Source: Pseudomonas sp. B21_DOA
Lineage (GTDB): Bacteria > Pseudomonadota > Gammaproteobacteria > Pseudomonadales > Pseudomonadaceae
Length of the DNA stretch: 64,000 bases
Assembly: GCA_030544685.1 (NCBI GenBank)
Contig: CP086683.1
Location: 2,480,001-2,544,000 of the forward strand
Direction: 5' to 3'
The notes below the pieces were generated by a model. It ran no database searches, was not told the DNA's origin, and saw nothing but the letters and a program-made list of their open reading frames with translations. The stretch's first letter is position 1; every line of letters begins with the position of its first letter. Positions 1 to 20,233 of this stretch are shown in pieces. A program made the position numbers and the translations under genes.

Positions 1-51
1 GTTGCGCAGCTCGATCAGGTCACGGCTGACTTTATAGTTGCTGTAGAACTC
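1..51 (-). pseudogene. nadB: Displaced original 3' segment of nadB (continues left of window)
   Basis: The minus strand reads [17 protein letters not shown]. This matches 16 of 17 residues of the intact NadB encoded at 6252-6302, while only 39 of 51 bases agree. It is therefore the host gene's former tail, cut off from its body by the insertion; the rest lies outside the window. Confidence 0.88.
35..51. repeat. Left attachment-site repeat (attL core candidate)
   Basis: TAGTTGCTGTAGAACTC here matches TAGTTGCTGTAAAACTC at 6286-6302 with one mismatch. Host nadB sequence lies to its left and element sequence to its right, as expected for an attachment junction. The exact crossover point within the 17 bp cannot be resolved by reading. 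Confidence 0.8.
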
Positions 52-61
52 GACCGTATGA

Positions 62-93
62 GGCTAAACCCAATGGATACAGGGGTTTCAGCC
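62..93. repeat. Hairpin between attL and the integrase start
   Basis: GGCTAAACCC (62-71) faces GGGTTTCAGCC (83-93). They pair except for one bulged base, around an 11-nt loop, and end directly before the integrase ATG at 95. It could limit integrase translation or be a recombinase or excisionase binding site; neither role is shown by sequence alone. Confidence 0.45.
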
Positions 94-94
94 G

Positions 95-1631
95 ATGACC
101 GTCAACCACCGCTCCCAAAGTGGGACAAACCTGTTACAAACTGCGCTCGCCAAGCCGTACCACTATCGCCGGTCTGGTCGCTATTACCTTCGCCTTCGCC
201 CTCAAGGAACCGTTAAGGGCTTCTTCACGCTGTCACTCAGGACTACCGACAAGGCCACCGCAATGACCATCTCCGACGACATCCTCTCGACTCTCAAGGC
301 TTACCACTTGGACAACCCTGAGGCGTCATGGGACGAACTCCGTGAGCGCTTGATTGAGTTCGCTGAGTACAACCTGACGATGGCACACGGTGATAGCTCG
401 CTGGTCGCTTACGAGATGATCAACGATGAGCATCACTTGGCACTTCGTAAGGCCTCCGCAAAGCTGCCCCTGAGCGTCAACCAGCAACGAGCAGTGAGTA
501 AGGCTCTTGAGATTCTTGAGGCCTCTCAGGAGCGTATGCGGGGAAGTCAGGGAAGCTGGTCGAAATCGTAAAGGACCTCAACGAAGAATCTTGTGGCACG
601 TCTTTGGCCCTCTCCTTGCCTTCATCTGTAAACGCTTTTCCGAGGCTGACCTTTAAGTCTCTCTCTGCGCTCTACATGGAGGAACGCAAAGACAGCATTC
701 AGCCCAGCACCATGCGCGACGTGAAGTCATCGTGTGAAGCTATCGGCGCGGTCCTTGGCGAGCTGGACATGAAGAACCACACACGGGAGGACATGAAGAG
801 CCTCAGGGACAAGCTTCTTGAGGACCGTAAGCCTTCGACAGTTAAGAAGCTGCTGACCCGGCTATCAACGGTCATGGATTGGGCTGTGAACAATGGCTAT
901 CTCGACAAGAGTTTCGATAAGGGCCTGAAGCCAACTAAAGGCGCTGACAGCTCCCGTGAGGCACTCTCTCAAGATCAGGTAAAGGCCCTGATGACTCACG
1001 CTAACTCACTACCAGTGGACGCATGGCAGCGTTGGGCGTTGTCCCTTGGGGTCATCACCGGGACCCGTATCGAGGAGCTCAGACAGTTGACCAAGGATGA
1101 CGTAAAGCAGGTTGGGGAGTGTGGGTCATCGACATCAATAGGAACGACGGCAAGACAGCCAAGACCAGGAACGCTTTGCGTGTCATACCGCTGACTGACG
1201 GTGCCTGTGGGTTCGACCTTCAAGCGTTCCGTGGGTTTGTCGATAAAGCTGATTCCCGACTGTTCACGTTAGGGGCTGGTCAGTTCTCGAACGTGCTTAA
1301 TAAGGCCCTTAGGGATGTCCTAAGTTTGAACGCTGATCGGACCCAGACCTTCCATTCTTTGCGTCACTCTCTGGCCGGTGCATTGAAGGCTGCTGAGATC
1401 CCTGTGGGGACCGCTGAGTCAATCTTGGGGCATGCTTCGGGATCTATCAGTTATGACCTTTATGGCGCTGGAAGTACGGTCGAAGTGACTCGATTAGCTG
1501 AGGCTTTGAAAGTAGCTTTGCGTTTCAGGGTGAAATTTTTAACATTCCTTGTGGTAATTACTGAGCCGATCTTGGGGCACCGGGGCACGCTTCATGGTCG
1601 GTCAGTTATGACTGATCTTATGGGCAAATAG
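95..1631 (+). CDS. Tyrosine recombinase / phage integrase, split by two one-base deletions
   Basis: Three consecutive reading frames together make one phage-type integrase. The N-terminal part (95 to about 540) resembles the short domain that opens many phage integrases (YHYRRSGRYYLRLRP). A SAM-like core-binding domain follows (ALYMEERKDSIQPSTMRDV), then the catalytic domain with TGTRIEEL (Arg), HSLRH (His and Arg), LGHASG (His) and YDLYG (Tyr). All expected catalytic residues are present across the shifts. The shifts fall in GGGG runs at 540-543 and 1114-1117. Adding one G to each gives an uninterrupted frame of 512 aa. Many genes in this window have the same type of error, so the enzyme may be intact in the cell. 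Its position beside attL fits a role in integration and excision at nadB. Confidence 0.85.
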
Positions 1632-1657
1632 AAATTATACAATTAGGTCTTAATGGA

Positions 1658-2002
1658 ATGAGAAATCTCGAACTTTATGGCGGTGAAAAGGTAGCTCAAG
1701 AGCTTAGAAAACGTGAGCTACAGCTGCTTTCGATAGATTCAAATGGTGAAAAAGCCGCAAGAACTATGGCTTGGAAAATGTTTTGCGATGATGAGCTAAA
1801 AATAGACGACAGCAATAGTAATTTATCACGGCTCGCACAGATCAAGTATTTTCATGCCGTTGACTTACTTCCTCAATATGGCCTGTCGATGGATATTGAT
1901 GAGCGTAAATTCAGAGATTGTTTTCTCGATGAGTTGTGGGTGATAAATAAGAGTGTCACTAAGAAGGAGTTCAATTGGTGTTTTACGTGTTTGTGGCTTT
2001 AG
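1658..2002 (+). CDS. Hypothetical protein, 114 aa
   Basis: Short AT-rich frame 26 bp after the integrase stop, on the same strand, starting at ATG 1658 with only a weak GGA upstream. The product is charged and predicted mainly helical, with no motif I recognise. Composition differs from the flanking chromosome and resembles the opposed gene pair at 2077-3767, suggesting the same foreign cargo. It ends face to face with that pair. It may be a small partner of the cargo or a degraded gene; no function is proposed. Confidence 0.5.
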   Translation: MRNLELYGGEKVAQELRKRELQLLSIDSNGEKAARTMAWKMFCDDELKIDDSNSNLSRLAQIKYFHAVDLLPQYGLSMDIDERKFRDCFLDELWVINKSVTKKEFNWCFTCLWL

Positions 2003-2038
2003 GCCTGTTTGGGCTATACAAGATATTTTTCTGATGCC

Positions 2039-2071
2039 TGCGACCAAGACCTTGAGTGGGTCGAGGTCGCA
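2039..2071. terminator. Stem-loop between convergent genes
   Basis: TGCGACC-AA-GACC pairs with GGTC-GA-GGTCGCA around TTGAGT. It lies between the ends of two convergent genes and probably terminates transcription from one or both sides. It has no clean T-tract. Confidence 0.45.
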
Positions 2072-2076
2072 AGTCT

Positions 2077-2580
2077 TTATTGGTCTCGAAATATTTGAAG
2101 TAGAGTGGTGGGTGATTTGATTTGATTGTTCATAAAATCAAAATAGTCTCGTCCGCCTGCCGCTTGTCCTTTATCGAATCCTTCTACTCCTTGTAGTTGC
2201 ATTGAGGCGCGAGTGTACTCATCGGTGGAGCCTATGTCTTTTCTTAGCAAGGCTTCATGTCCGTACAGCATGCAAATGAAAAACTCCTCATCGTCTCTTA
2301 ATGGTGCATTCGAATACTGTAAGGAAGCGTCAAGAAAACCTATAAAATAGCCTCTTACAAAGTCGCTGCTGAGTTTGGCTTTATAGCTTGATACGGATCT
2401 GCACAGCATGAGATTAAATTCAAGAATAGTAGCTGTGCGTGAAAGTGTTTCTCTGATTTGCTGATTTTGGGGGTGGGTTTTTTCTTTAAGAAGCCAAACA
2501 TTTAAAGCGTCCTGTATACTAAAATTTGTCCGGGCGATTTGTCTGCGAAGATTTGCCTCGGGAGTCCTGTCCAGAGTCAC
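2077..2580 (-). CDS. Hypothetical cargo protein, 167 aa
   Basis: The start codon overlaps the stop of the upstream 396-aa gene by 4 bp (2577-2580), the usual sign of translational coupling, so the two products probably work together. The sequence is rich in predicted helix with no transmembrane segment and no catalytic motif I recognise. Base composition is markedly AT-richer than the chromosome and codon use includes rare Pseudomonas codons, pointing to transfer. A role as regulator, antitoxin or accessory subunit for its partner is possible but rests only on the gene order. Confidence 0.65.
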   Translation of the reverse strand: MTLDRTPEANLRRQIARTNFSIQDALNVWLLKEKTHPQNQQIRETLSRTATILEFNLMLCRSVSSYKAKLSSDFVRGYFIGFLDASLQYSNAPLRDDEEFFICMLYGHEALLRKDIGSTDEYTRASMQLQGVEGFDKGQAAGGRDYFDFMNNQIKSPTTLLQIFRDQ

Positions 2581-3767
2581 TCGAGATTTGTTTTTGCTGC
2601 TTCCTCGTTTTCTTGAATTCTGAGTTCGAAGGTATTGGATAGATGAGTGTACTGATGGATTTGATCCAGAATCAGAAAGCCTATTAGTGACGCTTTTCTT
2701 GTAAATGAAGAGGTCGGGTTTTTGCCATGGCTGACTGTGTTTCTACTTATGAAGTCAGTTTCTTCAGTAACGTTGAAATCTTTAAAATAGTGCTTGTTTA
2801 GATACTCTCCGAATCTATCGGGGAGTAGTCTTGTGATTGTGTGAGTGTGCTTTGTTACATTGGTGGATATGTGAGAAGATAGCGCGCTCTGTTGTCTTCC
2901 TTGTTTTTGAGGGTTTGCTCGGATGAAGTCCTCTCGGAGAAGTGCCTCAATCCTTGGGTATAATATGTGTATTGATGCGTCATAATCCTCATTCAGATGG
3001 TACTTCATTGATTTTTCAATGAGGGCGTAATGTGGTTTTATTTTCTCGTTGTTGCTTATTTTTGATAGCCAATTGTTACTGTCGTCACATAACTTTTGGT
3101 CGATGCTTTGCTCTATTTCCTGAGTGTCCCAGTCGAGCTTTAAATAATTAAGCAGGTTTAGTTGTTGCTCGTAATCAAGATAAGAGAACGGGAACCAACC
3201 GGAAGCAATGATTTTACGCCACTCGTCGTCATTTAAATCAAATATCTCTGGAAAAACCGAAGCCGAGAATCCAGTAGCTATAAGGCGACCTACGTCGTAG
3301 TCTATAGGTGCGTAATTTTCATTTTCTAATAGAGGGCCGAAATCCCAGAATAGAATTCTCTCCCATCCATTGTTTAGTATGATTACATAGCCACAATCCT
3401 TGGGGAATTCTATACCTTCTAATATCATTTTGTCGAAGTGGTGGAGGTCATTTTTTCTTACTGCGTCACCAGCTTCAACGCTTCTGGTTACCAATGCTTC
3501 AGCATATATGTCGAAGTCATTTAGATGTACTTCTGTCTCAAGATTTTCGTGAATTATGGCGACGAAGCGCTTAACCGTTGAGGCGTGGAAGTCCGCGTAG
3601 GCCATTTCTAAAATTTGGTTAGGGAAAGCTTCAACCTTACGAATGAAATCTCTACCGCTTGACGATAGGGAAACCCCTCGGTACTGGATAAGTGCGGGTT
3701 CTCCAGCTCTCGCAGCGTTCGTGCAGTAACCGGCAGGCTTTTCTTTTAGGTGAATTACTTTCTTCAT
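2577..3767 (-). CDS. Large cargo protein with C-terminal HEPN-like motif, 396 aa
   Basis: First gene of a two-gene minus-strand unit in the element. The N-terminal 200 residues are acidic and aromatic with no motif I recognise. The C-terminal part resembles DUF4209/Apea-type HEPN regions: a helical stretch (HILYPRIEALLRE) followed by RNTVSHG. R342 and H347 form the R-x4-H arrangement typical of HEPN ribonucleases. HEPN proteins commonly act as RNA-cleaving toxins or antiviral effectors. That function is inferred here from the motif and from the location in phage-associated accessory DNA. Low GC relative to the chromosome supports horizontal origin. The start is ATG 3767, and a small palindrome at 3835-3849 lies upstream. 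The gene could equally encode a non-catalytic helical protein in which the motif is coincidental. Confidence 0.7.
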   Translation of the reverse strand: MKKVIHLKEKPAGYCTNAARAGEPALIQYRGVSLSSSGRDFIRKVEAFPNQILEMAYADFHASTVKRFVAIIHENLETEVHLNDFDIYAEALVTRSVEAGDAVRKNDLHHFDKMILEGIEFPKDCGYVIILNNGWERILFWDFGPLLENENYAPIDYDVGRLIATGFSASVFPEIFDLNDDEWRKIIASGWFPFSYLDYEQQLNLLNYLKLDWDTQEIEQSIDQKLCDDSNNWLSKISNNEKIKPHYALIEKSMKYHLNEDYDASIHILYPRIEALLREDFIRANPQKQGRQQSALSSHISTNVTKHTHTITRLLPDRFGEYLNKHYFKDFNVTEETDFISRNTVSHGKNPTSSFTRKASLIGFLILDQIHQYTHLSNTFELRIQENEEAAKTNLE

Positions 3768-3834
3768 CGCTCGATCCCTATGTGCCGAATTCTTGACTGC
3801 CCTTGCTTAAGACTCTGCCAGAAATAATCACTTT

Positions 3835-3849
3835 ATGCCAATAAGGCAT
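3835..3849. promoter_or_regulatory. Small palindrome upstream of the cargo operon
   Basis: ATGCC-AATAA-GGCAT, 5-bp arms, 68 bp upstream of the start of the 396-aa gene on the opposite strand. Its position suits an operator or promoter element; no clear -10/-35 pair was identified. The rest of 3768-3894 shows nothing else. Confidence 0.3.
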
Positions 3850-3894
3850 CGTGCCGATATTCGTTGGTTTCCCCCATCCTTACAGTTTCTTGAA

Positions 3895-4132
3895 TTTACA
3901 GGTGGGTTTCGCCCGATGGTCTGAGGATTTTGCAGGGCGTAGGGCTGAACTATAACGGAACCAAGTAGCTGCTCGTTAAGATCCGCTACGAATTACTTAA
4001 AGCTCTTGAGATGTTCTCTATGGAGACCATCGTGTCACGTATGTGCCCATTTCTCGGATGGCCCGCCGTTACCTGCAAGCCTTAAGGTCGCCGTGCAAAT
4101 GCTGATGAGGCCCCACCTAAGGGACAGAGGGC
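3895..4132 (+). pseudogene. Decayed copy of the 4447-4956 gene
   Basis: This stretch aligns with about 4590-4840 of the intact gene downstream. Shared blocks include CGATGGTCTGAGGA, TCTATGGAGACCATCG versus TCTACGGAGACCATCG, GGATGGC(C/T)CGCCG, and the following CTTATGAGG/CTGATGAGG region. The reading frame is broken by indels and in-frame stops and both ends are missing. It is therefore a relic of a duplication or of recombination between related phages, not a working gene. Confidence 0.7.
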
Positions 4133-4446
4133 TTTGTCCTTCTGAGATTCTGCCGGGTAGGTTGGAATAAACCCTTACTTACAATGGAAGATACGAATAG
4201 TTTCTTCTGATGCCCATTTAGATTTGTCTGTAAAGACCCTCACTAAGGCCACAGGACTAATACCTCCGGGCCCACTCTCGTAAACCTTAGTCGAGCCAAT
4301 TGGGCTTAAATCCCAATCTACGCATGGATGACGGTTACAACCTCGGAACTCCCCACTTAAAACCCCTCACCTAAACAGGGACCACCGAGCCCATCCTAAT
4401 CCCCTCGCAACCAACGGAGACCACCGCTACCAAGGAGACCCGCCAC
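4133..4446. other. Non-coding leader of the helix-turn-helix-like gene
   Basis: No convincing gene. The stretch holds the T7-type promoter-like site at 4231-4253 and ends with a strong ribosome binding site (AAGGAG at 4432-4437) before ATG 4447. Otherwise nothing recognisable. Confidence 0.5.
4231..4253 (+). promoter_or_regulatory. T7-type (gh-1-like) phage RNA polymerase promoter candidate
   Basis: The site begins TAAAGACCCTCACTAAGGC. The Pseudomonas phage gh-1 promoter consensus, as I recall it, begins TAAAAACCCTCACTRTGGC, and the T3 promoter shares the CCCTCACTAA core. Over 23 positions about 20 agree. It lies 194 bp upstream of the gene at 4447, in the correct orientation. No single-subunit RNA polymerase is encoded in the element, so any activity would need one from another phage. 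Confidence 0.6.
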
Positions 4447-4956
4447 ATGACCCATTTCTCTACCGTTCTATTTCAAACCCTGGCCCATGACTTCGACCGG
4501 GCCGACTACCTGACAGGTCTTCGCCTTGTGCCTAATAAACCCAAGCGAGGAACCGTGCCGACAATCATTGATAACCCTTTCTGTGGTCAACTGGATTTTC
4601 AGGACCGGTATGACCGATGGTCTGAGGACATCCTTTCAGGAGTCGCAAGGCTGGACCACGGCGGAGCCAAACAGCTCCCGGTTAAGACCCTCTATGAATT
4701 GCTTGAGGCCCTTGAGGTTTTCTCTACGGAGACCATCGGGGCACACCTGGGTCTGTCCTCCCGGATGGCTCGCCGCTATCTCAGTGCCCTTGAGGTCGCC
4801 TTGCAACCGCTTATGAGGTCCCGGCCTAAGTGGCTGAGGGCTGCTATGGGAGACTTTGAATGTCACCAGCGCGAGACCACCCCGGCCATTCAATCGACAC
4901 CCAACCAGATGGCACAGCTACGTCTGGACCTGGGAACTGATGCGTTCGCCATTTAA
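4447..4956 (+). CDS. Hypothetical phage protein with helix-turn-helix-like region, 169 aa
   Basis: Starts at ATG 4447, 9 bp after AAGGAG. Residues about 85-120 (FSTETIGAHLGLSSRMARRYL) read like a winged or tri-helical helix-turn-helix: a helix, a Gly-containing turn and a basic recognition helix. A DNA-binding role is therefore plausible. The N-terminal half is unrecognised. A decayed paralogue lies just upstream (3895-4132) and a T7-type promoter-like site precedes the gene, suggesting that expression was tied to a phage transcription programme. It could be an element repressor, an excisionase or a replication accessory protein. Confidence 0.7.
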   Translation: MTHFSTVLFQTLAHDFDRADYLTGLRLVPNKPKRGTVPTIIDNPFCGQLDFQDRYDRWSEDILSGVARLDHGGAKQLPVKTLYELLEALEVFSTETIGAHLGLSSRMARRYLSALEVALQPLMRSRPKWLRAAMGDFECHQRETTPAIQSTPNQMAQLRLDLGTDAFAI

Positions 4957-5271
4957 TGCGGACACAAGATAAAGAACCCTAAGTACCGACCTCTAAGAGG
5001 CACTGACTCAATGAGGACACAAGACTAAAGCCATCCCTAAATGACCCTTCCTTTGTGACGGGGATTATTTGCTGATAAGCAATCCCACCTCTTAGAGACC
5101 TTTAAGACCCTCTGAGCTTAGTGCCTGGGTCTACCGACCACTGATTGAAAGCACCACTGAGCAACCTTTAAGAGACCACTGAGCAGCCGCCCAGGACCTG
5201 CGCGCACCTCTAAGACCTGCACCATGGGTCACTAAGGAGAACCACCACCACACAATAAGGAGACATCTACC
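4957..5271. repeat. Non-coding spacer with short direct and inverted repeats
   Basis: No gene is seen. GGACACAAGATAAAG (4960-4974) recurs as GGACACAAGACTAAAG (5015-5030). Between them lies the palindrome CCTCTAAGAGG (4990-5000). ACCACTGA occurs three times at about 5138-5180. A strong AAGGAG (5257-5262) precedes the HNH gene. The repeats could be protein binding sites, an origin-like region or degenerate phage promoters and RNase III sites. Confidence 0.45.
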
Positions 5272-5811
5272 ATGCAAAACATTCAGATCGACGTTAAGAA
5301 CCTTTCCGCTTCCTACAAGGCCGACCCTAAGAGCCCTTCGGGCCTTGCGACCCTTGAAGGTCAACCCGTAGGCAACCAGCGTCCCGATGGCTATTGGTCA
5401 TTTCAAGGGCTGGCAGTTCACCGGGTCGTGTACGCACTGGTCACCGGCAAGGACCCTCAAGGGCTCTACATCGACCACCGCGACGGGAACCCCGGGAATA
5501 ACAAGACCAGCAACCTAAGGGCCTGCACCAATCGCCAGAACGCACAGAACACCCCAGGTCGTTCCCGCTTCCTGCCTAAAGGGGTCTACATCAACGCTAA
5601 GACTGGCCGTGTGTCTGGCTGTGTAGAAGGCTACGGCCTGGGTAAAAGTTTCATGCTGGCCGATGACCATGACAGCTCGCAGCTCAACGCAATGTGTCGT
5701 GCTGCCTATGAGGCAATCCTTGAGGAACACGGAGAGTTCGCCAACGTAAGGAGCTTCTTTTGTCAGTTACCCATTGAGGCCGTAATGGGGCCCGCTGAGG
5801 GGCCTTGCTAA
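5272..5811 (+). CDS. HNH homing-type endonuclease, 179 aa
   Basis: Residues about 50-90 carry the HNH nuclease signature of phage homing endonucleases: VHRVVYALVTG, then YIDHRDGNPGNNKTSNLRACT, in which the two His and the Asn residues form the metal-binding and catalytic core. A C-terminal AP2-like DNA-binding part (KGVYINAKTGRVSGCV) follows, the order typical of T7-like phage HNH proteins. ATG 5272 is preceded by AAGGAG at 9-bp spacing. It is the last gene before the right end of the element. The family cuts specific DNA sites, often in competing phage genomes, so it could act against a co-infecting phage or be a selfish gene; the target is unknown. Confidence 0.85.
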   Translation: MQNIQIDVKNLSASYKADPKSPSGLATLEGQPVGNQRPDGYWSFQGLAVHRVVYALVTGKDPQGLYIDHRDGNPGNNKTSNLRACTNRQNAQNTPGRSRFLPKGVYINAKTGRVSGCVEGYGLGKSFMLADDHDSSQLNAMCRAAYEAILEEHGEFANVRSFFCQLPIEAVMGPAEGPC

Positions 5812-6119
5812 GGCTGTTTAAGAGAGGACTCCCTCTGAAAGTCCCCGTATCGCCTGAGCCCTGCTGGGCTGACTTGTTGCTGACTCAAAGGCGACTAAAC
5901 GAGAGCCTAAGGGGAGATGAGGAAATGACACGAAAATCTGAATGACCACCTGTAACTACTAACCTGCGCGCTTACCCCCGTGGGCCTTGCACGCTCATTC
6001 GGGCGCACGTTAAGGACCCTTGCGGGCAGGCGATAAGGACCCCAGCGTTAGGACAAATATGTGCCAAAGCTGTTACAGATCGGGGGCTTATGGTGCTACG
6101 CTAAGGGTCCTAACGTGCC
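5812..6119. other. Non-coding right end of the element
   Basis: No gene. A weak stem-loop (AGAGG-ACTC-CCTCT, 5823-5836) just after the HNH stop may terminate it. The last 115 bp hold a cluster of short repeats and a near-perfect inverted repeat described separately. The sequence ends at the nadB stop codon. Confidence 0.5.
6005..6118. repeat. Inverted repeat and arm-type site cluster near attR
   Basis: GCACGTTAAGGACCCTT (6005-6021) is repeated in inverse orientation as AAGGGTCCTAACGTGC (6103-6118), differing only by one extra A. Between them the core recurs as GATAAGGACCCC (6032-6043) and GCGTTAGGAC (6045-6054). Several spaced copies of a short motif within about 180-300 bp of the attachment core look like integrase arm-binding sites. 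The pair could also form a long stem that terminates nadB transcription. Confidence 0.5.
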
Positions 6120-7727
6120 TCATCTGGTCGGTGTAAGGATCGTATCCTTCGCCTCTGGCAGCATCTCTGGATAGTCCAGCGTGTAGTGCAGACCCCGAGA
6201 TTCCTTGCGTTCCATCGCTGACTGGATCATCAGTTCAGCTACCTGAGCAAGGTTCCTCAACTCAATAAGGTCTCTGCTTACTCGGTAGTTGCTGTAAAAC
6301 TCATCGATCTCATCCAGCAACAGACGCACCCGGTGCTGCGCCCGTTGCAGACGCTTGTTGGTGCGCACGATGCCGACGTAGTCCCACATGAATCGGCGCA
6401 GCTCGTCCCAGTTGTGCGCGATGATCACATCTTCATCCGAGTCGGTGACCTGGCTGGCGTCCCAGACGGGCAGGGCGCTCGGCGCCGCGATATCATCCAG
6501 CTGCGCGAGAATGTCCGCCGCCGCCGAACGGGCGTAAACGAAGCATTCCAATAGCGAGTTGCTGGCCATGCGGTTGGCGCCGTGCAGGCCGGTAAAACTG
6601 GTTTCGCCGATGGCGTAGAGGCCGGGCACGTCGGTGCGCCCATGCTGATCGACCATCACGCCGCCACAGGTGTAGTGCGCGGCGGGAACCACCGGGATCG
6701 GTTGTCTGGTGATGTCGATGCCGAAGCCCAGGCAGCGCTCATAAACAGTCGGGAAGTGGCTTTTGACGAACGCTTCGGGCTTGTGACTGATGTCGAGATA
6801 CACGCAGTCGACACCCAGACGCTTCATTTCATGGTCAATGGCCCGCGCGACAATGTCACGAGGCGCCAGCTCGGCGCGTTTATCGAAGCGATACATGAAG
6901 CGCTCGCCATTGGGCAGCTTCAGATGCGCGCCTTCGCCACGCAGGGCTTCGGTGATCAGGAAGCTTTTGGCTTGCGGGTGATACAGGCAGGTCGGATGGA
7001 ACTGATTAAATTCCAGGTTCGCCACCCGGCAGCCGGAGCGCCAGGCCATGGCGATGCCGTCACCGCAGGCGCCGTCAGGGTTGCTCGTATAAAGATAGAC
7101 CTTGGCCGCGCCGCCCGACGCCAGAATCACGAAACGTGCGCCGTAGGTATCGACTTCCCCGGTGGCACGATTCAGTACGTAGGCGCCGAGACAACGGTCG
7201 CCTTCCATGCCCAAGCGGCGTTCGGTAATCAGATCGATGGCAACGCGCTGTTCCAGCAGTTCGATGTTCGCGCGCTCTTTGGCCTGGGCCAGCAAGGTCT
7301 TGAAGATCGCAGCGCCGGTGGCGTCGGCAGCATGGATGATCCGCCGATGGCTGTGGCCGCCTTCGCGGGTCAGGTGAAATTCGAAACCACCGTCTTCAGT
7401 GCCGGACTGTTCGTCGCGGGTGAACGGCACGCCCTGGTCGATCAGCCATTGGATGGCTTCGCGGCTGTGCTCGACGGTAAAGCGTACGGCGTCTTCATGG
7501 CACAAGCCGCCGCCCGCATTGAGGGTGTCGTCGACATGGGATTCGACAGTGTCGGTATCGTCGAGCACTGCGGCCACGCCACCCTGGGCCCAGAAGGTCG
7601 AACCGTTGGCGAGATCGCCTTTGCTCAATACGGCAATGCGCAGATGACCGGGCAAGGTCAACGCGAGACTCAAACCGGCAGCACCGCTGCCAATTACCAG
7701 AACATCGTGTTGGAACTGTTGGCTCAT
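6120..7727 (-). CDS. nadB: L-aspartate oxidase, 3' end supplied by the integrated element
   Basis: Converts L-aspartate to iminoaspartate with FAD, the first step of de novo NAD synthesis. The 535-aa product has the N-terminal FAD-binding [10 protein letters not shown], the substrate-domain region [16 protein letters not shown], and the usual C-terminal helical domain. The start is ATG 7727 (MSQQFQHDV); upstream in-frame codons are not conserved-looking. Everything 3' of position 6302 is element DNA: the last 55 or so codons use AGA, AGG, CTT and ACA codons rare in the rest of the gene, yet preserve the protein. The gene is therefore probably functional. It is divergent from algU, as in other Pseudomonas. 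Confidence 0.95.
6286..6302. repeat. Right attachment-site repeat (attR core candidate)
   Basis: TAGTTGCTGTAAAACTC lies inside nadB and matches 35-51 with one mismatch. Host-type nadB sequence begins immediately to the right. To the left lies the element-borne gene tail. Confidence 0.8.
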
Positions 7728-9490: not shown

Positions 9491-10456
9491 ATGCGCGCCA
9501 TCCCTCTACTTTCGCTTCTGCTCAGTGGCTGGTTCATTGTTCCAGCCCACGCTGACGAGGCCCAGGACTGGTTGACCCGTCTGGGCCAGGCCGAGCAGCA
9601 GCAAAGCTTTCACGGTACTTTCGTTTACGAGCGCAACGGCAGTTTTTCCACGCACAACATCTGGCATCGCGTCCAGAATGGCCAAGTCCGCGAGCGGTTA
9701 TTGCAGCTCGACGGCTCGGCTCAGGAAGTCGTGCGCATTGATGGGCGTACTCAATGCGTCAGCGGCACCCTGATTGCGGGATTGGGTGATTCACCCAACG
9801 CTGCCGCCCGTGCGCTGGATCCCAAAAAGCTGAAGAATTGGTATGACCTTGCCGTCATTGGCAAGTCGCGTGTGGCCGGTCGCGATGCCGTGATCGTGTC
9901 ACTCACGCCTCGTGATCAGCACCGCTACGGTTTCGAGCTGCATCTGGACAAGAAGACCGGGCTGCCGCTCAAGTCGTTGCTGTTGAACGACAAAGGGCAG
10001 TTGCTTGAGCGTTTCCAGTTCACCAGCCTCGACACTGATGAGATCCCGTCGGACAAGGACTTGTTGGCAGACGCCGATTGCAAGCCGATCAACATCGCAA
10101 GCGACAAGGCTTCTGCAGCCAAGACCGTGCAAAACTGGCGTTCGGACTGGCTGCCGCCAGGCTTTGAGCTGACCAGCAGCAGTTCGCACAAAGATGCGCA
10201 AACCAAGACCCAAGTCAGCAGCCTGATGTATGACGATGGTCTGGCGCGTTTCTCGGTGTTCCTTGAACCGTTGAATGGCGCAACCGTCACTGACACCCGC
10301 ACTCAGTTGGGCCCGACCGTCGCGGTATCCCGTCGCCTGACCACGCCGCAAGGCGAAATGATGGTCACGGTTGTCGGCGAAATCCCGATTGGCACCGCCG
10401 AACGAATCGCTCTATCGATGCGTAACAACGATGGCGCTGCGACCAGCAAGCAGTGA
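9491..10456 (+). CDS. mucB: Periplasmic regulator MucB (RseB-like)
   Basis: A 321-aa exported protein with signal peptide MRAIPLLSLLLSGWFIVPAHA, an N-terminal lipoprotein-carrier-like domain (FHGTFVYERNGSFSTHN) and a C-terminal RseB domain. It binds the periplasmic tail of MucA and shields it from the AlgW protease, releasing it when envelope damage is sensed. AAGGAGG lies 5 bp before its ATG, which follows the mucA stop by 8 bp, showing co-transcription. Confidence 0.95.
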   Translation: MRAIPLLSLLLSGWFIVPAHADEAQDWLTRLGQAEQQQSFHGTFVYERNGSFSTHNIWHRVQNGQVRERLLQLDGSAQEVVRIDGRTQCVSGTLIAGLGDSPNAAARALDPKKLKNWYDLAVIGKSRVAGRDAVIVSLTPRDQHRYGFELHLDKKTGLPLKSLLLNDKGQLLERFQFTSLDTDEIPSDKDLLADADCKPINIASDKASAAKTVQNWRSDWLPPGFELTSSSSHKDAQTKTQVSSLMYDDGLARFSVFLEPLNGATVTDTRTQLGPTVAVSRRLTTPQGEMMVTVVGEIPIGTAERIALSMRNNDGAATSKQ

Positions 10457-20143: not shown

Positions 20144-20233
20144 GGAGAGATGCCAGAGTGGCCGAATGGGACGGATTCGAAATCCGTTGTACCTTCACCG
20201 GTACCTAGGGTTCGAATCCCTATCTCTCCGCCA
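20144..20233 (+). tRNA. tRNA-Ser (CGA)
   Basis: A 90-nt cloverleaf with acceptor stem GGAGAGA/TCTCTCC, anticodon CGA in the loop flanked by GGATT/AATCC, a long class II variable arm (GTACCTTCACCGGTAC), T-loop GGTTCGAATCC and encoded GCCA end. Confidence 0.95.

Follow-up and report, generated by a model that had tools for sequence, protein, structure and literature searches.

A 6.25-kb element integrated in nadB of Pseudomonas sp. B21_DOA is a probable satellite of T7-like phages

We analysed a 64,000-nucleotide stretch of Pseudomonas sp. B21_DOA (contig CP086683.1, positions 2,480,001 to 2,544,000; hereafter the window, G000:C1:2480001-2544000, where G000 is the genome of the window), which begins inside the 3' end of nadB displaced by an integrated element. 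In this one-contig genome the element occupies 6.25 kb between two nadB tails, and its features, together with those of the adjoining gene, were as follows.

1 to 51, minus strand: displaced native nadB 3' tail, the remainder lying left of the window from about G000:C1:2479885 (by alignment)
35 to 51: left copy of the attachment (att) core, 17 bp, one mismatch against the right copy (by direct reading)
95 to 1564, plus strand: tyrosine integrase, here in three frames (open reading frames, ORFs, at 95-571, 604-1194 and 1119-1631)
1658 to 2002, plus strand: small ORF of cluster C9, a cluster present in 4 elements
2077 to 2580, minus strand: variable cargo gene 1, cluster C11
2577 to 3767, minus strand: variable cargo gene 2, cluster C12, 396 aa
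3891 to 4038, plus strand: degenerate partial second copy of the 4447-4956 gene (by direct repeats D1 and D4, 75-76%)
4230 to 4252, plus strand: T7-like phage RNA polymerase promoter of the gh-1/3MF5 type, 18.5 bits
4357 to 4379, plus strand: second T7-like phage promoter, 20.1 bits
4447 to 4956, plus strand: cluster C7 protein, phrog_3360, weak helix-turn-helix, downstream of the phage promoters
5272 to 5811, plus strand: HNH endonuclease (HNH_3)
5919 to 5986, plus strand: T7-like phage concatemer-junction (terminal-repeat boundary) site
6120 to 6302, minus strand: recoded nadB 3' end from the element
6286 to 6302: right copy of the att core
6120 to 7727, minus strand: resident full-length nadB, 535 aa from MSQQ, a hybrid of host 5' part and element 3' end

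An earlier note on this DNA had claimed that the element rebuilds nadB with a protein-preserving, codon-diverged end, counting 39 of 51 matching bases and 16 of 17 matching residues, and these counts were exact for window positions 1-51 against 6252-6302 (76%). As the note had supposed, nadB continues to the left of the window, where G000:C1:2479899-2480051 aligned to window 6150-6302 at 78% within an alignment spanning 167 bp. Over the 51 codons we observed 24 synonymous and 3 nonsynonymous differences, with 34 of 153 bases differing (7, 3 and 24 at codon positions 1, 2 and 3), and the rare codons AGA and AGG were indeed present in the element tail where the native tail has CGT and CGC. Forty-eight of the 51 residues were kept, whereas 5000 random placements of an equal number of changes kept 28.4 on average and 36 at most. 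The core common to both element ends (35-51 and 6286-6302) extended over 17 bp with the one mismatch. Judging from the preserved protein, the rebuilt nadB probably stays working. Replacement of the 3' end of a protein gene is a known trick of phage 21 and e14 at icd, which likewise integrate in the 3' part of a metabolic gene and bring a synonymous-rich replacement end; they differ in being temperate lambdoid elements of E. coli, with another target gene, integrase and element type.

The flanks of the G000 element, once joined, aligned without a break to the element-free genome G110 over 2549 of 2549 bp at 87.6%, so that the uninterrupted nadB locus expected by the earlier note does exist; three further relatives aligned across the joined junction over 2310, 2317 and 1606 bp. 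The G110 nadB end was chimeric (L060:1799-1969), being element-type by the core and then native-type to the stop codon in a site that is otherwise empty. This is likely the scar of element loss through recombination between the two gene tails, with gene conversion as a possible alternative origin, and the codon divergence of the tails may slow losses of this kind. Genome G186 (L061) may hold another nadB mosaic.

To define the family we used window 6050-6302 as a query against 398 Pseudomonas genomes (G000 included), accepting matches of at least 237 of 253 bases at 84% identity or more that ran into element DNA. That other elements use nadB was borne out, as the same tail type was found in 21 of the 398 genomes. 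Seventeen complete nadB elements were observed, all of which begin with the integrase on the left and finish with the recoded tail on the right, with variable DNA in between. In all 15 genomes where element and displaced tails were compared, the 51 codons included 17-28 synonymous and 2-4 nonsynonymous differences. Mean identity was 92.4% among element tails (18 tails), 87.3% among native tails (15 tails) and 77.8% between element tails and the native tails they displaced; the tails of G206 and G030 were omitted from these means, being out of register and distorting the tree. An element tail is on average closer to other element tails than to the native tails displaced, so the tail moves together with the element. 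A nearly identical element, matching that of the window at about 99% over 6.1 kb, was found in Pseudomonas sp. RIT-PI-r (G198), and other named hosts of nadB elements included P. paracarnis, P. marginalis, P. mandelii, P. haemolytica, P. putida and P. viridiflava.

Two genomes held the element at a second site. In G206 it was observed at 1.35 Mb with no adjoining nadB, and nadB with its native tail was intact at 1.50 Mb. In G030 it formed a 6428-bp contig whose right end continued both into nadB and into another locus. The second-site junctions in these two genomes shared approximately 13-14 bp of the att core. We considered an excised circle for the G030 contig and set this aside because two different right flanks join it, as in a collapsed two-copy repeat. 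Part of the integrase was also observed at 89% in a contig labelled Streptomyces sp. (NZ_JAHHIU010000355.1, L152), which is probably contamination.

Related elements at other sites were found through the gene of cluster C2, which is carried by most nadB-type relatives. Fourteen C2 loci away from nadB were examined, three of which (L100, L103, L106) were dropped for lack of an integrase match. In the remaining 11, the best stretch of the integrase was 39-62% identical to that of the nadB type, and direct repeats were spaced 6366-6688 bp apart. Besides nadB, four target sites were recognised, with genes named by eye. Three lie in a gene for a LysR-type regulator, a tesA-like gene and a gene ending in FWANPEMFGKYWW, and the fourth is at the start of a SohB-like gene. 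Five of the 11 elements had repeats 89-291 bp long at 71-86% identity, again representing diverged gene tails, and the other six had repeats of 18-53 bp. No convincing copy of nadB or of the four other target genes was found in phages 3MF5, phTUNSv, gh-1 and phi15 (best E 0.005).

The length of the elements was nearly fixed. After omitting a 1.6-kb remnant (G036) and three loci at contig ends (G105, G390, G104), 31 of 34 complete elements measured 6251-6738 bp; from the 22 named loci we had removed 8 that lacked a measured right end and 8 that duplicated earlier loci. The exceptions were an element of 7801 bp, in which the integrase is split by approximately 1.2 kb of extra DNA, and two of 12959 and 13046 bp. 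Ten Pseudomonas T7-like phages that we compared had genomes of 37359-41728 bp, a range compatible with six units of 6.25-6.74 kb (37.5-40.4 kb) or three of 13 kb (39 kb). Sizes of metagenome contigs bearing C2 (among 120 of 250 proteins) are suggestive of the same unit, with 13 contigs at 6.1-6.85 kb, 2 at 5.35-6.1 kb and 3 at 6.85-7.6 kb.

T7-like phage promoters were scored with a matrix built from 17 annotated gh-1 and 3MF5 promoters at a cut-off of at least 12 bits; 18 annotated promoters lacking the CCTCACT anchor (all 12 of phi15 included) and three odd-length gh-1 entries were left out. A total of 54 matches were observed in 32 elements (208 kb) versus a single match in 170 kb of chromosome. 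Fifty-three of the 54 were on the plus strand, and 27 of the 32 elements had one. The two promoters of the window element (4230-4252 and 4357-4379) lie a short way upstream of the genes at 4447 and 5272. G301, G281 and L104 (elements L044, L050 and L104) had variants closer to CCCACAATA or CCTCACATATAG, and these are perhaps tuned to different helper polymerases.

A second phage signal was found near the right end. The terminal-repeat region of Yersinia phage AP10 was matched by DNA close to the right end of the other-site element L098. A 341-bp query taken from this part of L098 matched 97 phage records, with sizes of 38.8-41.7 kb among the 40 records listed; the ten phages examined from these matches were all Studiervirinae by record. 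The core of the motif starts 14-17 bp before the annotated right terminal repeat in gh-1, AP10, 3MF5 and Kvp1. We built a profile hidden Markov model (HMM) of this concatemer junction from 11 T7-like phages, leaving out phi15 (no core) and phTUNSv (record cut within the site). The HMM identified a junction site on the plus strand in 31 of 32 elements, 26 of them at E ≤ 0.001, and gave no match in the 1.6-kb remnant. All 20 nadB-type elements with a match had the junction 301-319 bp from the right end, and at other sites this distance was 194-207, 302-306, 449 or 533 bp. The window site (5919-5986) had an E value of 8.6e-8, compared to a best E of 1.6 across the other 56.2 kb of the window. A junction site and two promoter cores were also present in each of six additional nadB elements outside the earlier set.

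Gene content varied among the elements. C2 was observed in 30 of the 398 genomes and in 17 of the 21 nadB-type loci, and its product is predicted to be a capsid protein of the HK97 fold (model predicted local distance difference test, pLDDT, 78.7), with the EcCI2 capsid among the structural matches and a C-terminal BIG2 domain in some of the proteins. The plasmid collection gave one weak match, at 30.7%, in a plasmid of Enterobacter hormaechei, and C2 was not found in 369 genomes of the class, a set that held no genome known to match. In a viral contig collection, 3 loci matched the HNH gene and 5 matched C2. The first halves of the 13-kb elements of G237 and, partly, G301 have genes like those of the window element, and their second halves hold the C2-type genes. 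Relatives of the C7 protein were present in 39 phage records, all from Pseudomonas phages, and its predicted structure had no significant match in the PDB. The degenerate copy of the phrog_3360 gene at 3891-4038 sits approximately 700 bp upstream of the intact gene. None of the 21 nadB-type loci contained an ORF longer than 494 aa, which is too short for the RNA polymerase, portal or large terminase of phage 3MF5, and no phage RNA polymerase, head or packaging family was found among the window element ORFs of at least 60 aa. AlpA had no match among the 8 window element ORFs scanned, a scan limited to those longer ORFs.

The integrase, broken into three frames in the window, is intact as a single 490-aa frame in the G198 element. 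Compared to that element, G000 has eight indels, six of which shorten a G or C run by one base and some of which break the integrase. The adjacent chromosomal coding genes, to position 10456, had no indels versus the strain of G198. Window 1-64000 lacks G or C runs of six or seven bases, and two relatives have a few per 20 kb; the missing runs and the element indels together hint that homopolymers were shortened in the assembly. Since its integrase frame is broken in this assembly, the window copy may be disabled.

We read the element as an integrated satellite of T7-like phages (Studiervirinae) and as one member of a Pseudomonas family, with a probability of roughly 0.85. The grounds are that promoters and a junction site of one phage group recur in one orientation, at fixed places and within a near-fixed length, among genes that are otherwise different. 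The insertion site, the family, its size, the two signals and the capsid-like gene of the relatives (a predicted fold) are all read from sequence. As in phage satellites generally, we observed an integrase (frameshifted in the window) with att repeats, helper-type signals and no full virion gene set. Integration in nadB with a recoded tail, as the earlier note had it, stands and is recurrent, and the T7-like promoters, the junction site and the near-fixed-size family are what that interpretation had missed. It is likely, on a somewhat lower level of assurance, that the family as a whole keeps helper promoters and junction, holds its unit to about one-sixth or one-third of the helper genome, exists with and without a capsid gene, and rebuilds host genes with codon-diverged ends.

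The proposed cycle would begin with recombination by the integrase at a core of 13-17 bp within the 3' part of nadB. The phage-type attachment site (attP) would carry approximately 180 bp of codon-diverged nadB end, and integration would therefore rebuild the gene. During infection by a T7-like phage, the phage RNA polymerase could read the element promoters and switch on the downstream genes, after which the element would excise and then replicate. Near the right end the helper terminase would recognise a concatemer junction that copies its own, and a unit held near 6.5 kb would allow about six units (three of the 13-kb type) to fill a 37-42 kb head. Variable cargo lies between integrase and promoters, and at least one of its genes is of an anti-phage type.

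Several observations weigh against this satellite reading. Five junction matches were weak (G301, 0.0095; L102, 0.021; L101 and G281, 0.35; L104, 0.4), and the three at 0.35-0.4 rest on their position, as background matches within elements reached E values of 0.046 and 0.25. The phages of the HMM were found through the one element L098, their repeat annotations being independent, and phi15 lacks the exact junction core. No plus-strand promoter of at least 12 bits was found in L096, L101, two partial elements and the 1.6-kb remnant, and the att repeats of L097 and L099 are short, at 18-20 bp. C2 had no match in the genome of the window, and so the window element has none; its frequency at other sites is uninformative, because C2 served to find those elements. 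The fold matches of C2 were low (TM-scores of 0.26-0.40 to the query). Other element genes do not come from T7-like phages: C2 was without a match in 50,697 phage records, and phages with C7 relatives are not T7-like in size, measuring 73-95 kb among the 15 of 39 records listed. The integrase breaks may reflect decay or sequencing error, both being possible given that the neighbouring genes have no indels. The counts are not independent, as several elements are close relatives. Finally, induction, excision, replication and packaging, and likewise helper-driven expression and copy number, enter the reading by inference.

The signals might instead be what is left of a temperate 40-kb T7-like prophage in nadB, mostly deleted down to integrase, promoters and right junction. 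Such a remnant would naturally keep both signals, and integrase-bearing T7-like phages do exist and hold the closest phage integrase relatives that we found. However, independent deletions would not leave 31 of 34 complete elements, at sites of several kinds, within 6251-6738 bp, and the nadB elements measured reach 13 kb at most. The lack of any ORF above 494 aa in the nadB-type loci, of a polymerase, portal or terminase family among the scanned ORFs, and of C2 among the phage records also argues against it. The constant size and the lack of long ORFs were our main grounds for rejecting the defective prophage, which we consider improbable.

We think it similarly doubtful that the element is an ordinary small integrative island, spread by natural transformation or passive transduction and merely holding captured phage DNA. 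Its integrase, variable cargo and gene-restoring att site are those of many islands, and the packaging of the elements is inferred rather than observed. However, in all 20 nadB-type elements with a match the junction keeps its place, 301-319 bp short of the right end, and promoters and junction keep one orientation across differing cargo and integrases; this constancy in position and orientation argues for use and not for chance capture. A tRNA-linked island was set aside, the sole tRNA found in the window (20144-20233) being far from the element. We give almost no credence to an assembly artefact or a simple gene duplication at the window edge: the window does start inside a repeat and the integrase does show homopolymer indels, but in the one-contig genome 6.25 kb separates the two tails, and separately named genome records show this arrangement again.

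Among the known systems close to the probable satellite described here are the phage-inducible chromosomal minimalist islands (PICMIs). According to the portions of the report at hand, PICMI115 (6110 bp) is packaged in virulent phage particles as an 8-copy concatemer of approximately 49 kb; neither a cos nor a pac site is identified in the helper there, and random concatemer ends suggest headful packaging (PMC10803314). PICMIs share with our elements a length near 6 kb, few genes, a fixed chromosomal site and phage-protective cargo, as far as those portions describe them (PMC10803314). They differ in lying by fis in Vibrionaceae, whereas our elements lie in nadB and other Pseudomonas genes and have T7-like promoters and a junction site. 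The element would thus work like a PICMI but is not one, as site, host and scanned genes differ. The capsid-forming phage-inducible chromosomal islands (cf-PICIs) average 14 kb in the same portions of that report (PMC10803314). They resemble our family in that most nadB relatives encode the predicted HK97-fold capsid, with EcCI2 among its structural matches, and differ from it in that the family is of 6.5 kb and the window element lacks a capsid gene. The integrase-bearing T7-like phages Warsawvirus 3MF5 and phTUNSv have a related integrase, the same promoter type and a terminal-repeat junction, but these are complete phages of 40-42 kb, and the element ORFs are too short for their polymerase, portal and large terminase. 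We found no satellite of T7-like phages in the open PMC literature, a scope outside which preprints and closed journals fall, and the parts of PMC10448857 and PMC10052179 at hand do not describe one.

T7-like phages are among the best understood viruses, yet an integrating satellite of theirs is without a description in the literature covered. If the reading is true, a 6.5-kb parasite exploits a fast lytic phage by means of copied promoters and one packaging site. The elements also represent natural examples, in many Pseudomonas species, of gene-tail replacement with synonymous recoding.

The elements further offer small cargo genes to test for anti-phage action. The first cargo gene of the G286 element is a TIR-TM gene by PADLOC (L048:6275-7102), also present at 95% in the other-site element L094, and the nadB element of G356 carries a gene with FtsK-gamma and HIRAN domains (L047:13197-14156). 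In the window element, PADLOC found no defence family in the cargo, and the products of 1658-2002, 2077-2580 and 2577-3767 had no Pfam, PHROG or PADLOC match. An R-x4-H motif was observed near the C-terminus of the 2577-3767 product; it may be HEPN-like and is a lead only.

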